Under the pieces are notes generated by a model. It was not told the origin of the DNA. It saw only the letters and a list, made by a program, of their open reading frames with translations, and made no database searches. Shown here piece by piece: positions 18,561 through 57,229 of a DNA stretch of 64,000 nucleotides. A program made the translations under genes and the position numbers. The DNA lies in NCBI GenBank assembly GCA_000310025.1, contig FN649736.1, positions 462,016 to 526,015 of the forward strand, read 5' to 3'. The DNA comes from Ectocarpus siliculosus (Eukaryota > Sar > Phaeophyceae > Ectocarpales > Ectocarpaceae). Position 1 is the stretch's first letter. Each line of letters begins with the position of its first letter.

Positions 18561-21500
18561 TCATCGACACGGAGTCAGGGCCAGCCTCACCATTCCCTTG
18601 ACCTTCTTCCCTCGTCTTCCTTTCGGATACCCGACCTCAAACCAACCGTCGAGGCTGGGAGAACCGGGCCGTGGAGGTGACCTGGATGGCATTCCATCGA
18701 CGACCCGAACGTCAGTTGCTCCCCGCACCAGAGGATCGTCCTCATCCTTCGCCCTTTTCTTTCTTGGGTTAAGACCAGGAACGCTCACTCCAAACACGGA
18801 CGGCGATCCCCTCCCACGTTCGCTCGTCGACGTTTGATCGGCAGAAATACCCGCGGTGGCCATGCCGGTGGTGACAGTGCTTCCGCCGAGCGCATGTGGT
18901 GCCGTTCCCGGACACTCGACGTTCGTGTCCGTTATTCCTTTTTCCCCCGTCTGCATCGTGTCCTCGACCGGTATCGTTAGTCGACCCCACAGAACCGGCT
19001 TCGCGCGTGGCGTGGATGTACTGCGGCCGGTCGATTGTCCTTGGGCTTCCCCGTCATCCTTCGGCAGTTGGTCAGGCGACTGGAGCTCGTAAGACTCCGC
19101 GAGATGGTGCTGCGTGCTCGTCGTGTTCGTCTTCCTGCTCTTGAATGACATCGTGAACACGCCCCCTCTTGCATTTTTCGGAGGCGAAGTCTCTATCGCC
19201 GCCGAAATCCCGCTAGTGAAGAAAGCTTGGGTCGCGACTGACACATCCTCGTCCTCGCCGTCATCGTCTTTTTCAGAACCACTTTCCTCCTGAAGGTCCA
19301 ATGCACTCGAAATATGGTTGGTGTCGTTGATGGCGCATTGGCGGCTCATACCGGAGACATCTGTCTCCTGCTCCCTGCCCTCGTCAACCGGGGTCTGCGG
19401 AGGGTCCTTGCCGCCATCCAGCCCCCCTGTGTCAACAGTTGCCTCTGTTTCGGACGACGTCAGTGGCGATTCTGATGGCGTCCACGACGACTGGCCCTTG
19501 TCTTTGTTTTTCCTGCCCTTGAACGGCGACGATAGAAGGGTCGGACTCCTTCGTCGCGTGTTTTTGGTCGTAGCCGCACTCGCCACGGAAGCTTCGTCGT
19601 CGGTTACTGAAACCCCACCATCTACAACCGACACGTGATCGTCGTCTGCGCACCTCCGCCGGGTCGACAAATCAGTATCAAGCTTCGCATCGTTACTGTC
19701 GTGTATTCCTCCCCGCTCTGTTCCAGAGTCACACAGATTGTCGGCACTCGTAGGGGATAAACCACCCCGTGATTTGTCCCCGGGCTCAACAGGCTGTCGC
19801 TTGTCTTGCGGGCATAGAGCGGGCTGGTCTGTATCCTCGGCGACGGCGTCGAGAGGTACGGACCTGTTGCTGTTGGTTTCCGTGCGGTCATGACTGTGGG
19901 TGGATTGAACACTCCGTTGGCGGCCGCTGCTGCCCTCCACGGGCGCACCGGTCGTCCGGTGTTGCGCCGTGTAGGGGCGAAGAGCCGCGGGGATAATTGT
20001 CTCCCACACCTCAAGCACTAGCACGTCCGGGGGAAAAGGCTCTTCCAACGCGGCAGGTCCTCCTGCTTGTTCTCTCCCGCGTACCTCGACGGAGTCGTCA
20101 TTTTTTCCGTTGGTATCACGATTCTTCCTTGTGGGCCCACTGCTGCCCTTGCTCCTCGGACTCCACAGGGACCCCCGCGCCCTCTTGAGCAAGCTTCCTG
20201 GGGCGACGCTGTCTGCCTCTCCCTGTACGTCACGGGCCTTCTGTTCACTTTCCTGGGGGTCGCTTGTACCCACGTCGGTGGATTCTTCGCGGTCACAGGC
20301 GCCACGTGGGGCGATGGCGTCCGATGCGATGTTCTTTTTTCGCTCTCCCCTTGGGCTCCAGAAACGGGCTCCTATTTTTCTTGTCGCCCCGGGGTCGGTA
20401 CAGTCTGCCACTGCCTCTCCTCCCACAGAGGCGTCTGCCGCCTTGACTGAAAATTCCGAACAGCTTTCGTCGGGGGGATCAGCATCCTTAGACGACTCAC
20501 CTCGGGCATTCTGCTCGCCGAATGATTTCAGCCAGGCTCGATCGGGACGGACATGTTTATCGATGACGGCAGAGCTCTCGTTTCCTGACTCGGTGTCATC
20601 GGAGTCTCTACGGGATTCGTCTTCACTCGATAACTTGTCCAGAACGCCGTCCGCGTTGTCGGCCGTGGTTGAGGCTGCCTCCTCACTGCCGCAGTTACTA
20701 GTGCCGACGTCGCTGTTTGGTATTGCAGTGATGGTCGCAGTTTGCTTTCGCCTACCTCTTCTGGGGCTCCAGAACGACAGCTTCCTTCTGTTCAAGATCC
20801 CGCCAGCAGGATTCATGGCGACGACCTCATCTCTGGCTGCTGTACTGCCGCCGTTGGTCCCGGGAGGCGTGTTCGGGCAGCTGTCCTCGGAGTTGACGGA
20901 GTCACCGGTAGACTCGCCACTCGCCTCTCCCGTGTCTTCCTTGTCTCCGCTCCTTGTCCGGTTTTTCCTGTGCGGGATCTTTCCATCGACTCCGCCTGGA
21001 ACACTAGAGTCGGTGTTGGGATCACCAGAGGATTTTTCGTTCCCCGGAATGCCGTCTGCGGCCGCCACCGTGACACGGGGCGTCGTTGCGTCTGCAGTGG
21101 CGCAATCGCTGATTCCGACGGCTTTCCCCCCCTCGGATGACACGTTTTTCTTCCCTCTACCTCTGGTGGGGCTCCAGAAAGACACCCCGCGCTTCAGTTT
21201 CGCCCCACCAGAAAAACTTCGGGGGAGTTTTGCTAGGACGGACGGTTTACTTGTTGTCTTGCCCTTCACGTTGGCCGTAGTGTCCAGGCAGTCGTCATCA
21301 GAGTTGATGGAGTCATCAGTAGACCCACCACCCGCCTCTTCCTTATCTTCGTGTTCTCCGTTCGATGTCCAGTGGATAGCTTGTGGGGTCGTCGTATTGA
21401 CTGCACCTGGAACATGTCTCTCGACACTTCTGTCGGTGTTGGGATTGAAAGAGGGTTCGCCGTCGCCCGGAATGTTGCCTGCGGCCGCCACCGTGACGCG

Positions 21501-24500
21501 GGGCGTCGTGGCGTCTGCGGCGGTATCATCGCTGCTGCCGACGCCGCTTCTTGGTGTCGCAGTGACGGTGGTGGTGGAGGTCGACTTTCTCCTGCCTCTT
21601 GTGGGGCTCCAGAACGACAGTCCCCGCTCACGAAACATACCGCCAGGAGATTCGGTGGCGTCGACTTCCTCTTCGCCAGCGGCGCTGCCGTCGTTGATCC
21701 CCGCTGGGGTGTTCGGGCAGCTGTCCTCGGAGTTGACGGAGTCACCGGTAGACCCGCCACGCACCTCTTCCGTGTCTTCGTTGTTCCCGTTCTTTGGCCA
21801 GCTTTGATCTTGCGGGATCGATGTGTCCACTACGCCCGGAGCATCCGTCTCGACACTATTGTCGGTGTCGGGGTGAGCAAAGGTTTCGACATCGTCCTGA
21901 ATGTCATCTCCGGCCGCCACCGTGACACGGGGCGTGGTGGCGTCTGCGATTGTACCATCGCTGCTGCCGACGTCGCTTCTTCGTGTCGCGGTGGCGGTGG
22001 TGGTCGACGCTTGCTTTCTCCTGCCTCTTCTGGGGCTCCAGAACGACAACCCCCGCCTACCAAATATTCCACCAGGAGATTCGGCGGCGTCGACCTCCTC
22101 TTCGCCGGCGGCGCTGCCGCCGTCGATCCCGGGAGGGGTGTTCAGGCAACTATCCTCGGAGTTGACGGGGTCATCGGTAGACCCACCACCCGCCTCTTCC
22201 CTGTCTTCCTTGTCCTCGTTCTTTGGCCAACTTTGATCTTGCGGGGTCGATTTATCGGCTGCGCCCGGAGCATCCGACTCGACACTGCTGTCGGTGTTGG
22301 GATCATCAGAAGATTCGACGTTGCCGGCAATGTCATCTGCGGCAGCCACCGTGACACGGGGCGTGGTGGCGTCTGCGGCGGTGCCATCGCTGCTGCCAAC
22401 GTCGCTTCTTGGTGTCACGGTGGCTGTGGTGGCCGAGGTTTGCTGTCTCTTGCCTCTTCTGGGGCCCCAGAACGGCAACCCCCGTTTGTTAAACTTGCCG
22501 CCGGCAGATTGGCTGACGTCTCCCTCCTCATCGATTACTGTGCTGCCGTCGTTGATCCTCGCTGGGGTGTTCGGGCAGCTGCCATCGGAATTGACGGAGT
22601 CATCGGTAGATCCGCCACCCGCCTCTTCCGATGTATCGACTACGCTCGGAGCATCCCTCTCGACACTGTCGGTGTTCGGATGACCAGACGATTCGACGTT
22701 GCCCGGAATGTTGTCTGCGGCCGCCACTGTAGCACGGGGCGTCGCGATGTCTGCGGTGCTGCCATCGCTGCCTCCGTTGGCACCGCTTCGCGCGATAGAT
22801 GCGTTTTTCTTTCCTCTACCTCTTGTGGGGCTCCAGAAAGATACCCCGCGCTTCGTTTTCGCCCCGCCAGAACCCCTCTGGGGAAGCTTCGCTAGGACGG
22901 ACGTCTTTCTCGCTATCGTGTCCTCAGCCTTTACCGGTGTGTCTAGGGAGCTGCTGTCGGACTTTGTCAAGTCGCGAGCGAACTCGACGCGCGCTTTCTC
23001 CTTCTTCTTGTCGCTTTCTGCCGTAGCGATGACGCTGGAGGAATCCATTTCCGAAGAACTGGCATCAGATTCGGTGTAACACGAGTCATCGTCATCCTGC
23101 AAGCCGTGCTCCGCGGTAGCCCTCGAATCAACGTCGTTCAGAGCCGAAGCCTCTTCTCTTGCCGAAGCCGTCCGGTTGGTATCTGGTGGTCCCGTGTCGC
23201 GGAATCCTGGACCCTCCTCTGCCTTGCTGGCCGCAGCGGAAAATGGGTCGTCCACCACGCCGTTCCCTGAATGTCCCTCGCCACCAGGCCCACTTTCCTC
23301 TTCCGGGCACGCCACCGTACTCTCGCCACCCTCATCTCCAGCTACCACCAGCGAAGGATCAAGCGGCACCCCTGCCGACGTTCTTGGTGGTGGTCCCGGT
23401 AGCGGTAACACTTCATTCCATCGCCAGACCCAGATAGCTCTGTCGTCCTCTGCGTTATTCATTATTTCGGTACTGACTTCGCCGCCACCGCCCGAGGGAA
23501 GCAAGCGGGAGGCCACGGCAGCGCTCTCGACCACGTGCCGCCCACGGGTGACTCGAACGAACAGTGACACAGAGGAAAAGTCCTTCGATACCTGCAAGAT
23601 AGGGAGGGACGGGGGGGGGGGGCGGGGTTCAATGTCGCCAGTGTTGACGCAACCCCCACGCGATTAGGGATTTTCCAGGACCAGGTGAAATAGTGACGAC
23701 GAACTGTCCACGCTCCGGAAACATGCTGCCTTTTCGCGGAAAATGTGCCTTGGCTGGCTGGTTGGCTGGCTGCCGAGTTCTTTTTGGATGGAGGCTCTCG
23801 GCACTTGCCACCATTTCCCAACTGCCCTCACGGCACATCTTGGCAAGAATGCTCAATCCGCGCACAGGAAACACAGCAGTAGTGAAGTATCCAACTGCTA
23901 CTTTCGACAGATATGCACCGGAACCATGCACACTTCACCTTCTTCCACGAGAACATCCCACTCCCAGACGAAGCGGCCTTGACTTGCAGCTCGTGCAGAG
24001 TCACAGCGATGCCCGAGTCGGGTTCCACGCCCTCGCCCCAACCGCTCCCCTGCTGCTCCGCTGCATGGCCGCCTGACTTCTCCCGAGGAAACGGCCACTG
24101 AAAGTCCGGCGGTCGTTCTGCGAATATCTCTAGCTCTCTCTGGGTAACGAGACCTGTCGGAAAATTGGCCGGTCGGGTGCAGGGTGATCCGGTTCACCCC
24201 CCGTGCTAGTTCAGCGGTATTCATTCAAGTAGGTCGAGAAATCTCATTGGAGCACCTGGTGTCCCGAGGCCATATACGTACTATCCCGCGGGTTTTGAAT
24301 GGAGGTACCGGTTTTTCCGGGCCCGGAAATACAGGGATAAATTCGGAAGGAAATAGAATACCCGCGAGAGTTCATTCGCCCAAGAAACTGCACCTACAGC
24401 GGGTATAGCTTCGTCTGCAATGTTTTAGCCTCTGCGATGTTTTAAAGGAAGAGACGAGCGGTTTCCGGTAGGCCGGTGTCAGCCAACTGCTGGCAATAGG

Positions 24501-24970
24501 TTGAGAGTCAGGAGGGGGAGAAATCGGCTCGAGACACTGAGAACGATGATTCAGCATGCTTTCCCATGCTCATGCTGCCGACAAAAACACAAGCTATGAC
24601 AACTATGACAACTATACGCAGTAGCTCTGCACAGTTCCGTGGAACCAGTACAATACTGTCCGTCATCACACCGCACAACGATACAAATAGGCCAAACGAA
24701 TGCTAGCAAACTACGGCAACCGGGGAGAAACACCGTATTGCCAGGGTGGCAATCATCCTGCAATCTCTGTTGTTCGGCACGGACGGATGCGATCTCCTTC
24801 ACCTGAAGGGTCTCTCGGTACCCTGTCGACAATCACGGCAATCCCTTCCTCAGAGAGCAGGCTTCCCATTCCAAGCCTGCTCGGGTTGTTGTTGATGTAC
24901 GCATCAAGGCAGGCCAGCGAATGAGCAGCAACAGGGGTCAGGAAGGCAACATATGGAAGTACGATCCAGT
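18561..24970 (-). CDS. Large C2-like domain protein with disordered, repeat-bearing inserts (5' end unresolved)
   Basis: Supported exons: 24803-24970 (weak acceptor), 23939-24153 and 18561-23591; phases 1, 1, 0 agree and give about 1,800 residues, stop TGA at 18,561-18,563. Short strand-like blocks appear in the order of a C2 domain: GIAVTLHELQVKAA, then SLFVRVTRGRHVVESAAV, then WRWNEVLPLP (like the PxWNExF strand), then DVLVLEVWETI near 20,000-20,035, then VLWGRLTIPVED near 18,950-19,000, and last GWFEVGYPKG with GMVRLALT. C2 domains commonly bind phospholipid, often with calcium. Between these blocks lie long Ser/Asp/Gly/Thr-rich inserts. The first, about 1,000 residues, carries tandem FWSP repeats. 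Acidic calcium-binding loops are not obvious, so lipid or calcium binding is unproven. The true start lies upstream, perhaps at the EF-hand exon at 25.3 kb. Confidence 0.65.
20350..22870 (-). repeat. About seven tandem coding repeats, period 405-435 bp (FWSP units)
   Basis: The motif (L/V)SFWSP(R/T)RGR(R/G)K is encoded at 22827-22838, 22461-22472 (Gly for Ser), 22032-22043, 21603-21614, 21168-21179, 20763-20774 and, degenerate, 20352-20363. Spacings are 366, 429, 429, 435, 405 and 411 bp. Each unit of about 140 residues also carries ADATTPRVTVAAA, an NSEDSCPNTP-like block and DVGSSDGT. The centre units are most alike, as expected from unequal exchange. A last remnant (LWSPRSKG) lies near 20,150. 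Confidence 0.9.
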
Positions 24971-25283: not shown

Positions 25284-25374
25284 CTTATGAAAATCGAGTG
25301 AAGCTCATCCGGTGTTGCGTTTCCGTCGTGGTCCACATCGAAAATCTCGAAAGCCGCACTGTAGTCAAGGCTCC
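25284..25374 (-). CDS. EF-hand exon, gene assignment unresolved
   Basis: A 91-nt exon with acceptor GGGCAG and donor ATAAG/GTGTGC encodes SLDYSAAFEIFDVDHDGNAT followed by PDELHSIFI, a canonical EF-hand. The loop DVDHDGNATPDE has Asp at 1, 3 and 5, Gly at 6 and Glu at 12, so calcium binding is expected. The frame is open back to an ATG at 25,420, which could be a start codon instead of the acceptor. It lies 325 bp past the stop of the ankyrin gene and 5' of the C2-like gene on the same strand. Its exit phase (2) does not match the next supported exon (24,970, phase 1), so at least one exon is missing from the model. Confidence 0.6.
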
Positions 25375-25744: not shown

Positions 25745-28700
25745 CTATACGGGCGTGTAGACCTGTGTTTCGCTTGCATTCAAAAACTTGAACCTTAACC
25801 CACCGTCATCCTGTAGGGCATCTTCACGCAACAGTCTCTGAAGCTCTCGAGTTACCTCGTCGATCTTGTTCCTTGCCTCGAATAGCGGATCTACTTCATG
25901 GACTACAACGTCGCTCCCAGCGGATGTACCACCAGCTTCAACCCCGCGATTCAGCACCCCCTGAAGCAATCCGGCGTCATTTCCGCTATCTGATGAGGCA
26001 GTTCTACCGCCTGCAATCTGGTCCACAGTGCCATGGGGGAAACAGCCTAGCGTATCAATAGTGGGGGTCGATGGACCCTCAGCAGCAATTTGGTGGGCCT
26101 CGCCCGAGCCCGACCCTATCCGTCCATCGTTGTCCATACTCGGCGCAGCCGGAAACTCCCCGTGAGTCATTTCCTGATCGAGTGGTAGACGCGAGTGAGG
26201 GGGTATCTCGCGAAGATTCCTCCTTCCACCAGGCCGCTCGCCTTCGTTCCCTTCAACGATAACAAACACGGGAATCTCGGCCTCAAGGCGCTGTGTGCCT
26301 CTCGAGGCGGTTTGGAGATTGGCATCACCGGCGAAGCATCCTTGGGAAAGACTCGATCTGATGGCCTCCGCACCAGGTCCGGCTATCTGCAGTGCTTGAC
26401 CCACCGCTGGGGTAGTCGGGCGTCCGGTTTCAACATCTTCAGGCTCGGTTTGCACGGCGATGGCCCTCGTGCTACGCGGCGGCGGGTGCACTTCACACCT
26501 GTCCGGAGGGCATGAGTTGGTGCTTCTTATGTCGGCGCCCGCGCCTGGACCTTTAGCAGGTTCGAGTCCGTCGTGGACATCCTGTTTGTTGTTTTTTTGT
26601 GACGGATCGAGCAGTCCGGCTGGTTCTGGTGCTGCTGATGCTGCTTCATCACGTTCCCCGTTTGATGCAGCTTTCAAACTCTCCTCGTTCGCGTTTGTCC
26701 TCTGGTTTTCCCTGTTTTTGCTTCCCTCAGGAAGTCCTTCTGCTATCGTGCCTCTTGACAACATCTCGTCGGCGCCGGGGAGTGCACGGGGACTGTTTGA
26801 CGATGGCTCAGAGGAGAAGAATTCTGCGTGAGAACGTCCAGCTTCCGATATCACTTTGTCGTGAGTATCCATGCATGGACGTGGCTGTTTGCTTCGCCTC
26901 TGCAGTTTTCTTGCGCTCGGTCTTTGCTGCACCTGCCGCTTTCGTTGGCAGCGAATGTCGTAGCGCGCTTGTTGGCGTGAAATATGGGATTCGCGGCCAT
27001 ATCGTTCGGCGACAGCGGCCGCGTTTCGTCCCGAAGAGTTAAGGATCCCCAGGTCTAGAGCCCGGTGGTTGAGGAGATGCCTGGTGTGCTCCTGCAGTAT
27101 CAATAATTGATACAAGGGCCATTCAATGTCAAAATCCGCGCAGCGATGTCCCACGTGACAGAATACTATCGTGTTTCTGACCTGGGACAGTGTCGCCCAC
27201 ACGGCGATGCGCGCTACGACTCAAGATGGGGATTCGAAACACTTGCGTTATCTGCAACACGCACGACAGCGTGGCAGGTCAGCATGAGGCGGAAGGCTAA
27301 CGCAGATAAGCCTTCGCAGACGATTTCGATGTGAAAATGTGCTGTACGCGCGAAGGTAGCAGGAATTCTTGTGAAAGCTGTGTAGTTCTTGCCGAGAACA
27401 GCACACGTCCTCCGTTTCTTCGAAGTTCCAGATCCTAAATCAAAGTGCGCGAGTTGTTGCCGTCTATGAGACATCCCGTTCGGCATTTTGCAGGGTGAGG
27501 GTTAGTCCTTGGCCATAAATCTTGTTCCTTGGATCATAATCCGGGAGAAGGAGGTGTCTGACCCTGTGACCAGAACCATACCGATGTAATGCATACCAGA
27601 GCGTCACCGTTAAAGGGCGAGAGATCAAGGTCCTACCCTCAGAGGCAATTCAACGTGCAATGTGGCGAGTTCTCTCCGAAGCTACATGGTAACCCACCTC
27701 CAAACCAATCTTCAGAGATATCATGAGCAGGGTATCGCCCTGTTCTGGCTCTACTCCCGCAGGAGCACCCCAGCACAGCTCCAAGGCATCGCAAGCGTCG
27801 ACGCACCAGTACCACGGCCAAAGGTTGCCCCCTACGTGCTGGGCAGTTCTTGAGCTGAGCATGGCGCACCGGGCAGGCATCGGGACAGACATCGCCGGGA
27901 GTGGCCGACATCGCCAGAGACCGTAGGAAATCAAACACGATGGACACGAGGAGTTGGAGAACACGGTATGACAATGAATGTCCCTGCTGCTTCGTGCAGG
28001 TCGAGTTGACTTGTGGGAAGCTGCGCTACTTGCGCACACTCGGGGCTTCGAGGTTGTGACTGTGTCTCGTCGCGTATTTTTTTCATGATATTCACCGGAC
28101 TAGGAGGAGGTCACAGGCAACCAGATGTCCCCCGGTGGGTCTTCAGATCTGTTGCAGATGCTATTTGCGAGATTTCTCCCTTCGACTTTTGCTAGAGCCG
28201 CTTTCGTGCAGAGCTGAGCACCAGAGCAAGGGCGTCACGGAAACTCTCGTATACTAATGAGTACGATGGTGGGGCTTGTCCCGAAGATGTACTTACACTA
28301 GACTGCTACCTACTTCTTTATGAATGTCGGACGGAATCACGGTGAACGCTTGTACCTGGTAGTGGTGGTCGATTCACCATAACATACACCGAAATTCCCA
28401 ACGGCGGGCGGAAGGTTTACCTGGCAAGTTCAATATTTACTCATGGAAAAAGACAATGGCAATAATTCATGGAAAAAATAAAAATGTGACTCATGTTTGT
28501 TTACTGTTGTAGCTTTACCTGTACTGAAAGTTAATATTCGCTGCTCCCACTCTACGCTTCCGAAGGAGACGCTCGAATGACTTGGCCTCCCCATTTCTCG
28601 CCACATGGAACAAGCGTCTTGTGGCGTCAATCAGTTGTTGCTGCGCCGGGCACGCTTGTTCTGGAACGACGCCAACAGATACGTGGTCCAGGGCAATCGG

Positions 28701-55927: not shown

Positions 55928-56730
55928 CTAAAACTCGATTAATTCTCTTTTCGGGATCTGCCACTGGAATTGTGCATTTTTACTTGTTTTTGGATCTGCC
56001 AATTTTATACAAAATACAAGACTCCCCTTCGGAATGTAGGTGCAATGGCCTCCCGGGGTCGAAATTAATTTAGGGGTTGTATCGTGGTGTGCGGTAGGGC
56101 TGGTGGCCGTATAATAAATCCCACGTATCATCGGACGGTGGAGGCGGGTGGGTACGGTTGACCAACGAGTGTAATTTTGATGTTAATGTTGTACAACTGT
56201 TGGGCAGATACAATCTCTATTCCCGTTCCGTATGTGCTTGGGTTTGCCATGAGTTGAAGGTAGTGTGCGACACTTCGATAGGTTTGCTGAGGATGACCGG
56301 CTATTTGAACGTGTTCTGAATTTATTCCCGCTGAGATGCTCTGGAAGAAGGTATTTTGACCTGAGCCTGGGATGGGGATATGAAGGTTGTTCGTTATGTG
56401 GTCGATGAGTTGCCCTCGGACCGAAGAGTGCATGCTGGGATCATGGAAGACGCGACGGGCGATATATCGCAGTAGGCATGCACCATCACCAATTTCGTCG
56501 ACAATATGCCAGGACCCGTTGCTGCCAGAGCCACTGGAAGGGGTATTGCCGTGGTCATTTCCGTTGTTGTTGCCGTTGTTTTGGTCATCAGGGTCGCCTT
56601 GGTTATTGTCATTGTGGCTGTCGTTGGTGCAACGGTGACCAGGTAGTTGAATGTCGAACACTGGTGGTCGTTGCGCACTCTTCTGGGCAGCTACCCACCA
56701 TACCCCTCTGTTACCCGGGACTGGCTGCAT
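55928..56730 (-). pseudogene. OTU-family cysteine protease ORF, frame-broken (probably from a mobile element)
   Basis: From the ATG at 56,730 the frame runs about 200 codons to a stop at 56,128. It has the OTU Cys motif DEIGDGACLLRYIA (catalytic Cys after Asp-Gly-Ala), the helix HSSVRGQLIDHITNNL, and YGTGIEIVSAQQLYNINIKI, the usual conserved core. The C-terminal block with the expected catalytic His, within GIYYTATSPTAHHD, lies immediately downstream in a different frame (55,928-56,131). A single small indel near 56,130 therefore separates the two catalytic parts. A Gly/Asn/Asp-rich linker precedes the domain. OTU proteases occur in host deubiquitinases and also in eukaryotic transposons. Isolation in a repeat-rich area and the broken frame favour the latter. 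No reverse transcriptase or transposase was seen beside it. Confidence 0.65.
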
Positions 56731-57229
56731 TAGCACTTCATTTCAGCTACAAATGTATGGGAGCGGCATCATTCACAAACAACGTCCTCATTTTTGTGTG
56801 AGCTTCAAAGATTCAACCCCAACGAAGTGCGAAAGGTTCACCAACAATTTGGAAAGATTCGCTCCGAAATGAATATTCGGAAGGAAGGTCGAACGGTTCA
56901 CACAACCAAAACCTCGAGCGGAACTCCACTTTTTTTAACGTACTACACACATCGCTATGTATGCTGTGACGCCTTCCTGTATTCCTGACTGACTGCTATT
57001 ACTTCCACCGCTGATTGCATCGTCGGTGATCGGACAAATGGGGACCAACCTCCTCCTGCCTGCAAAGACACGGCAGTAGATCCTCGGCATTTAACCAATG
57101 GTGTCACGATCTATTTCTCTAGAACGTAAAAGATTCAACGAACTCCAGGATCTTTAAGAAATGAATACGAACGTGCAGAATTTGCGTGGAACTTACTCCA
57201 TGGGCGGTGTATTTTTTGTTTCTCACAGC

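Follow-up and report, generated by a model that had tools for sequence, protein, structure and literature searches.

Whether a handful of short hydrophobic blocks, separated by inserts of unusual size, belong to one C2-like domain is the question raised by a minus-strand gene of Ectocarpus siliculosus. The gene lies in the window analysed here, the whole stretch of 64,000 nucleotides at contig C11:462016-526015 within the 189-Mb genome, and all positions below are those of the window. We lean, by a small measure, towards a protein in which a probable EF-hand pair is followed by one C2-like sandwich with three enlarged loops that carry phospho-switchable sticker motifs. The sequence comparisons give moderate support, short of proof, to the view that the blocks make up one C2 domain.

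Coding frame and order of the blocks

The frame of the largest exon (exon D in Table 1) is coding. It stays open for 1,676 codons, for which the chance is about 10^-24.7 given the base composition, and each of the other five frames is broken by 13 to 70 stops. Four predicted exons join in frame on the minus strand with no stop across them, and the predicted join of exon C to exon D is phase 0, position 24153 being the first base of the exon with VTLHELQV. An earlier note, made from the letters alone, had named six hydrophobic blocks in the order expected for the strands of a single C2 domain, with more than 1,500 residues of insert between the later ones. All six were located in that order in exons C and D, and the three inserts add up to 1,123 + 338 + 104 = 1,565 residues. 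When a hydrophobic island was defined as at least 5 of VILMFYWC per 9 residues, 8 islands were found in the 1,721 residues tested, six of which coincide with the claimed strands 2, 4, 5, 6, 7 and 8, and there were none between residues 129 and 1,229.

A compact candidate relative in the same genome

The blocks were joined in silico into a chimera, and a search of the whole genome with it gave 8 candidates, namely six matches to the gene itself, one on contig C17 (E 0.41, hereafter L016) and one on C24 (E 2.0). The match to L016 covers residues 79-148 with 33% identity. The reversed chimera used as control gave a single candidate (E 0.73) away from the genome's PF00168 matches. L016 is a compact domain in a 1,194-residue open frame which by eye is rich in Ser, Glu and Gly and has IQ motifs downstream.

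The trimmed L016 domain matched Pfam C2 as its sole family with 16.9 bits (E 0.0077), below the cut-off of 22. The domain was unseen by Pfam in a 1,067-residue stretch and is absent from the 48 PF00168 matches of the genome, and a sequence search of the PDB with L016 gave no C2. Its C2 strand-block score had a z of 6.3, reached by none of 1,000 shuffles, and its strand assignment a p of 0.0008. An AlphaFold model built with a 10-row C2 alignment had a predicted local distance difference test score (pLDDT) of 75 and a predicted template modelling score (pTM) of 0.71; a single-sequence model (pLDDT 37) was too poor and was left unused. A Foldseek search of the PDB with the aligned model gave 689 matches up to E 10; each of the best 50, with E from 2e-6, looks like a C2 domain or a protein containing one. 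Because the input alignment was made of C2 domains, the model speaks for compatibility with C2 and is not independent proof. On the Pfam match below cut-off together with the model, we regard L016 as C2-like.

The Smith-Waterman score of L016 against the chimera was 83, compared with 71 for L017, the other non-self candidate of the genome search, and 53 for the best remaining window; the hhalign score was 43, compared with 12.3 +/- 2.4 and a maximum of 21.5 for the decoys (150 of 377 decoy windows). The Smith-Waterman alignment runs from the strand 4-5 loop to a C-terminal tripeptide PCR (Pro-Cys-Arg) with gaps of one and two residues only, and covers no more than strands 5-8. In the gene, PCR and the stop codon directly follow MVRLALT, and the L016 counterpart reads VALKPCR. 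When the chimera was aligned by hhalign to a C2 alignment led by L016, residues 84-161, that is strands 4-8, were matched with P 2e-4 and a probability of 46%, a result reached by 0/200 residue shuffles and 0/200 permutations of block order.

These alignments bear on the rival explanation that the blocks are not one domain at all. The protein would then be a disordered scaffold behind the EF-hand pair, bearing the repeated basic-aromatic motifs and with hydrophobic segments acting as separate binding motifs whose likeness to C2 strands is due to chance. Against it stand the alignment of strands 5-8, with hardly a gap, to a compact C2-like domain, made with chimera joints that had been set before L016 was known, and the dependence on block order once L016 is in the profile. 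A match drawn at random from 189 Mb would also rarely be a C2, which favours the link to L016. Since the Smith-Waterman alignment is limited to strands 5-8, hhalign adds strand 4 or shifts block 2, and the strand-1 profile prefers block 2 (its best match being LFVRVTRGRHV), the register of strands 1-4 is tentative; by its profile score block 2 may be strand 1 instead of strand 2.

Direct searches for a C2 domain

The claimed blocks were also compared with C2 domains by strand. Against profiles of seven strands made without L016, every one of the seven blocks exceeded random by 1 standard deviation or more on its own strand. Of 5,040 permutations the claimed assignment was in the best 1.75% (p 0.0175), which again speaks against chance likeness. 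When each claimed block is scored on its own strand at the best register tested, its rank among about 1,710 positions lies between 4th and 26th, and block 5 in a shifted register ranks 2nd. The chain score of the chimera was matched by 3/1,000 residue shuffles. In free-gap alignments the C2 of L043, a further C2 of the genome, picks strands 4, 6 and 7 (KWNEPLSF falling unguided on strand 4) and that of L041 picks strand 6; the total scores of L043 and L041 do not beat their own shuffles. At a gap cost of 20, only L001 (5 and 7 of 300) and L016 (27 and 16 of 300) among 14 C2s were reached by less than one tenth of both kinds of shuffle.

Another group of results weighs against one split C2 domain. 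Pfam found no family, and hence no C2 (PF00168), in exon D or in two block chimeras, and phmmer with the block chimera found no C2 in the PDB. A profile search with the blocks alone, for which the earlier note had said that the lack of a C2 match would refute its reading, gave no C2 from Pfam or phmmer/PDB and became positive only with the L016-containing profile. In a free-gap scan for ordered C2 strand blocks, with profiles from the genome's and PDB C2s and L016 excluded, the score was 46.3 compared with 40.4 +/- 3.8 for local shuffles, being reached by 33/500 of these and by 45/500 and 31/500 of wider shuffles, and the scan favoured blocks other than the claimed ones. In the ranking by a hidden Markov model (HMM) made from 14 C2s, the chimera comes 305th among 5,001 sequences, 5,000 of them shuffles, and 921st when L016 is left out. 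The strand profiles are readily confused among blocks: the own strand scores highest for block 5 alone (1/7), and the best assignment reaches 15.7 vs 11.4 for the claimed one.

The number of islands does not exceed that of shuffles (8 vs 5.8 +/- 1.9), a threshold of 4/9 gives 17 islands vs 19.6 +/- 2.6, five of them inside the gap between residues 129 and 1,229, and permutation of island order gives p 0.11 (9 islands) and p 0.32 (17 islands). Without L016 in the profile, the hhalign score was reached by 2/200 residue shuffles and 34/200 order permutations. In these hhalign comparisons block 2 falls on profile strand 1, which makes the N-terminal register unsure. A free-gap alignment of L016 recovers strands 5, 6 and 8, the first half of L016 landing mostly in repeats, and its significance varies with the gap cost: it was reached by 7/200 shuffles of the gene's protein at 7, 3/200 at 9 and 0/200 at 11, and by 6/300 at 15, 27/300 at 20 and 177/300 at 25. 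The main weakness is that the pairwise scores with L016 are selected, the chimera search itself having found L016.

The lack of a direct profile match from Pfam or the PDB, the non-significant free block search and island-order tests, the ordinary HMM rank and the confusable strand profiles are what a chance likeness would leave behind, and we consider that explanation rather unlikely. For the single split C2-like domain proposed in the earlier note, the comparison with L016 and the block-order tests support strands 5-8, strands 1-4 stay tentative, and a direct profile match was not obtained. The argument for one domain is carried by the strand assignment test and the comparison with L016.

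No Asp ligands for Ca2+ were seen by eye: the sequence is LEVWET in loop 3, and no matching Asp was seen in loop 1. D.D is usual at the loop-3 position of C2 domains, and the Asp ligands are not essential to the family. Insert 2 is located at what we take to be the place of the Ca2+-binding loop 3. Peptide patterns for orthologues, 5 of 6 derived from the inserts, gave 5 matches in viral contigs and 63 in genome contigs, none of which was confirmed.

Inserts, tandem array and basic-aromatic motifs

The inserts are rich in S, G, D, T and A. Disorder was judged from charge and hydropathy alone, by which inserts 1 and 2 and the short piece between strands 7 and 8 fall on the disordered side of the boundary and insert 3 lies just within the ordered side (0.430 vs a boundary of 0.413). 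The earlier description of the inserts as disordered loops is only partly right, because repeats in tandem, with a basic-aromatic motif under constraint, make up most of the largest one. Eight variants of the motif occur in insert 1, spaced 65 to 145 residues apart, the commonest being RG[LV]SFWSPxRGR. The ratio of nonsynonymous to synonymous substitution rates (dN/dS) among the first six units was 0.37-0.63 over 15 pairs, and pooled over the six it was 0.31 in the motif vs 0.62 elsewhere, the units being non-independent and gene conversion being ignored in both estimates. As estimated from these sequences, the strongest constraint within the repeat unit is at the motif.

The 24-residue windows at the eight motifs carry charges of +5 to +8, and the net charge of the exon is -82. 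Ser-Pro (SP) sites are found in 7/8 motifs, and [ST]Px[KR] occurs 7 times in insert 1 (mean 1.9 and maximum 9 in 2,000 shuffles). Elsewhere in the genome, the motif repeat gave only 2 weak matches (E 1.26 and 1.45) among 8, the other six being self matches. Facing the repeat array on the plus strand are antisense open frames at 20110-21807 (565 residues) and 21351-22895 (514 residues), which are probably a by-product of the array's composition.

That the inserts are retained introns or exitrons, with a spliced compact C2 as the working form, is very improbable. One open frame spans blocks and inserts, so that removal of whole codons would keep it open; the repeats on the other hand have a dN/dS below 1, 5 kb are free of stops, and no strong pyrimidine tract precedes a YAG inside exon D, a weak point as the filter caught only 1/4 of the proposed acceptors.

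Loop growth itself raises the explanation of a decayed domain, in which a C2 of compact ancestry has had its fold ruined and the repeat array is now the conserved functional part. By a rough polymer estimate, closing the three loops costs 9-14 kcal/mol relative to 10-residue loops, and typical C2 stability is near or below this value, which counts against a folded split domain as well. Decay would agree with the constraint on the repeats, with the low scores of the blocks in general C2 profiles and with the poor alignment of the first half to L016. All seven blocks nevertheless still exceed random on their own strand by 1 standard deviation or more, and we hold decay to be clearly improbable, though less so than removal of the inserts by splicing. 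For a sandwich that still folds, the closure cost implies that folding may need a binding partner.

A probable EF-hand pair and the proposed gene structure

An EF-hand pair probably precedes the block region. The predicted exons A and B and the start of C together matched EF-hand_7 (PF13499) with 28.7 bits (E 1.7e-6, cut-off 30) over positions 7-65 of 67, the second loop being degenerate. An earlier exon join, since replaced, had given 23.3 bits for EF-hand_7 and 25.7 bits for the single model EF-hand_6 (cut-off 25), and the stretch of the first exon gave 13.2 bits for an EF-hand in Pfam. The higher EF-hand_7 score lends support to the splice model, the current join of exon B having been picked after a different first join and with the EF-hand in view. 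A whole-genome search with the stretch from the EF-hand to strand 1 gave 6 matches, three of them self and three weak others (E 0.2 to 1.0).

The exon borders are predictions from sequence, by which the protein would have about 1,800 residues or more. Upstream on the same strand, a 485-residue open frame with a coiled-coil-like end by eye lies at 25745-27202. It had no Pfam match and could belong to this gene, as an earlier exon, or to a different one.

Table 1. Positions in the window of the exons, proposed strands, inserts and repeat motifs
Feature	Position	Strand	Remark
Exon A	25284..25374	-	First EF-hand, loop DVDHDGNATPDE at 25339-25304; predicted from GT-AG borders and in-frame join
Exon B	24803..24876	-	EF-hand link; predicted from GT-AG borders and frame
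Exon C	23939..24153	-	Degenerate second EF-hand PRDPSGLVTQRE spanning the B/C join; VTLHELQV (proposed strand 1)
Exon D	18561..23591	-	1,676 codons and stop (18563-18561); proposed strands 2-8 and three inserts
VTLHELQV, proposed strand 1	24004-23981	-	
SLFVRVTRG and RHVVESAAVA, proposed strands 2 and 3	23511..23567	-	SLFVRVTRG at 23567-23541; strand 3 by eye
WRWNEVLPLP, proposed strand 4	23397..23426	-	
Insert 1, strand 4-5 loop	20028..23396	-	1,123 residues; mostly tandem array, units of ~143 residues
DVLVLEVWE, strand 5	20001..20027	-	Aligned to KIMIEVWN of L016
Insert 2, strand 5-6 loop	18987..20000	-	338 residues
GRLTIPVED, strand 6	18960..18986	-	Aligned to C2s of L016, L041 and L043
Insert 3, strand 6-7 loop	18648..18959	-	104 residues
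Strands 7 and 8	18573..18647	-	GWFEVGYPKG (18647-18618) ... MVRLALT (18593-18573)
Best-preserved tandem array	21280..22630	-	Period 429 bp, 3.2 copies, 80% matches
Motif 1	22803..22859	-	KTKRGVSFWSPTRGRGKKN
Motif 2	22437..22493	-	FNKRGLPFWGPRRGKRQQT
Motif 3	22008..22064	-	FGRRGLSFWSPRRGRRKQA
Motif 4	21579..21635	-	FRERGLSFWSPTRGRRKST
Motif 5	21144..21200	-	KLKRGVSFWSPTRGRGKKN
Motif 6	20739..20795	-	LNRRKLSFWSPRRGRRKQT
Motif 7	20328..20384	-	TRKIGARFWSPRGERKKNI
Motif 8	20133..20189	-	LKRARGSLWSPRSKGSSGP

Other observations in the window and genome

Two further minus-strand frames of the window gave weak domain matches, an open reading frame at 56128-56736 to an OTU-like cysteine protease (20.7 bits, cut-off 23.3) and the start of a protein at about 16870-16740 to a SAP domain (18.6 bits, cut-off 23.9). 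In the genome there are 87 matches to the chlorophyll-binding family PF00504, which mark a photosynthetic alga, with gene clusters of identical PF00504 scores on G000:C92, C232 and C488.

Comparison with known systems

With type II C2 domains the protein would have in common the order of its strand-like blocks, ending in GWF...G.V.L.L, and it has a compact candidate relative that models as a C2 fold; it differs from them in loops of 1,123, 338 and 104 residues, in the absence of a Pfam C2 match and in having no loop-3 Asp by eye. Among the PDB matches listed for the L016 model are cPLA2, PLC-delta1 and PKC-epsilon, which we take to be of the type II topology class. The C2 domain of VPS34 is described with a helical hairpin insertion of about 41 residues at 170-210 (PMC13218723), and is in that description likewise a C2 with a functional insert, which unlike the inserts here is short and helical. 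The earlier note knew of no C2 domain with loops this large, and none near this size appeared among the open-access papers listed on C2 domains that are split, interrupted or long-looped.

Other C2s of the same genome also have loop inserts, as counted by eye: about 60 residues in L033 and about 33 in L032 between strands 4 and 5, and about 85 in L020 between strands 6 and 7. The L020 insert comes near insert 3 in size. Insert 1 exceeds the two strand 4-5 inserts 19- to 34-fold, and L033 and L032 are, unlike this protein, partly recognised by Pfam. These shorter inserts (~33 to 85 residues) suggest that the same loops tolerate growth in this lineage. L020 (G000:C4:72000-81900, minus strand, a frame of 2,054 residues) looks by eye like a multi-C2 protein, with some six C2-like domains, a number of them interrupted by inserts tens of residues long, and regions resembling EF-hands and a SAM domain; there is one PF00168 match in the frame.

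Plasmodium proteins are known to carry long low-complexity inserts within folded domains. In MARCKS, a disordered protein, the effector domain is a basic-aromatic stretch whose Ser can be phosphorylated. The motifs of insert 1 are likewise basic-aromatic with phosphorylatable Ser, but they occur in eight copies and have SP instead of PKC sites, and the likeness is an analogy only.

Proposed mechanism and implications

In the reading that we favour, a probable EF-hand pair would be followed directly by one C2-like beta sandwich with type II strand order, three loops of which would have grown. In the strand 4-5 loop, tandem duplication of a unit about 143 residues long would account for most of the growth to 1,123 residues. 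Since no loop-3 Asp is seen by eye, the core would act as a Ca2+-independent anchor or protein-binding module, and the EF-hand would do the Ca2+ sensing. Lying in an acidic loop, the eight basic-aromatic motifs could be weak multivalent stickers that bind acidic lipids or a partner that is itself acidic, and proline-directed phosphorylation at the SP sites could turn them off. Tethering to a membrane, as the earlier note had imagined it, we infer from these features. More speculative, and in our view doubtful, is a version in which a stretch of about 1,700 residues holds the strands, which assemble only at a membrane or partner because loop closure costs roughly the energy that folding yields, the largest loop forming a closed ring of eight stickers, mostly phospho-switchable, so that folding is coupled to multivalent membrane binding.

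If the split domain still folds, it would be an extreme case for a C2-type domain and would extend the known limit on the length of chain that can be held in the loops of a small beta sandwich, and a tandem repeat in coding sequence would have expanded within a domain that folds. The full protein, a version made compact and the compact relative would then offer a direct test case for loop-entropy limits, and domain searches based on profiles can, if the reading is true, miss split domains of this kind.

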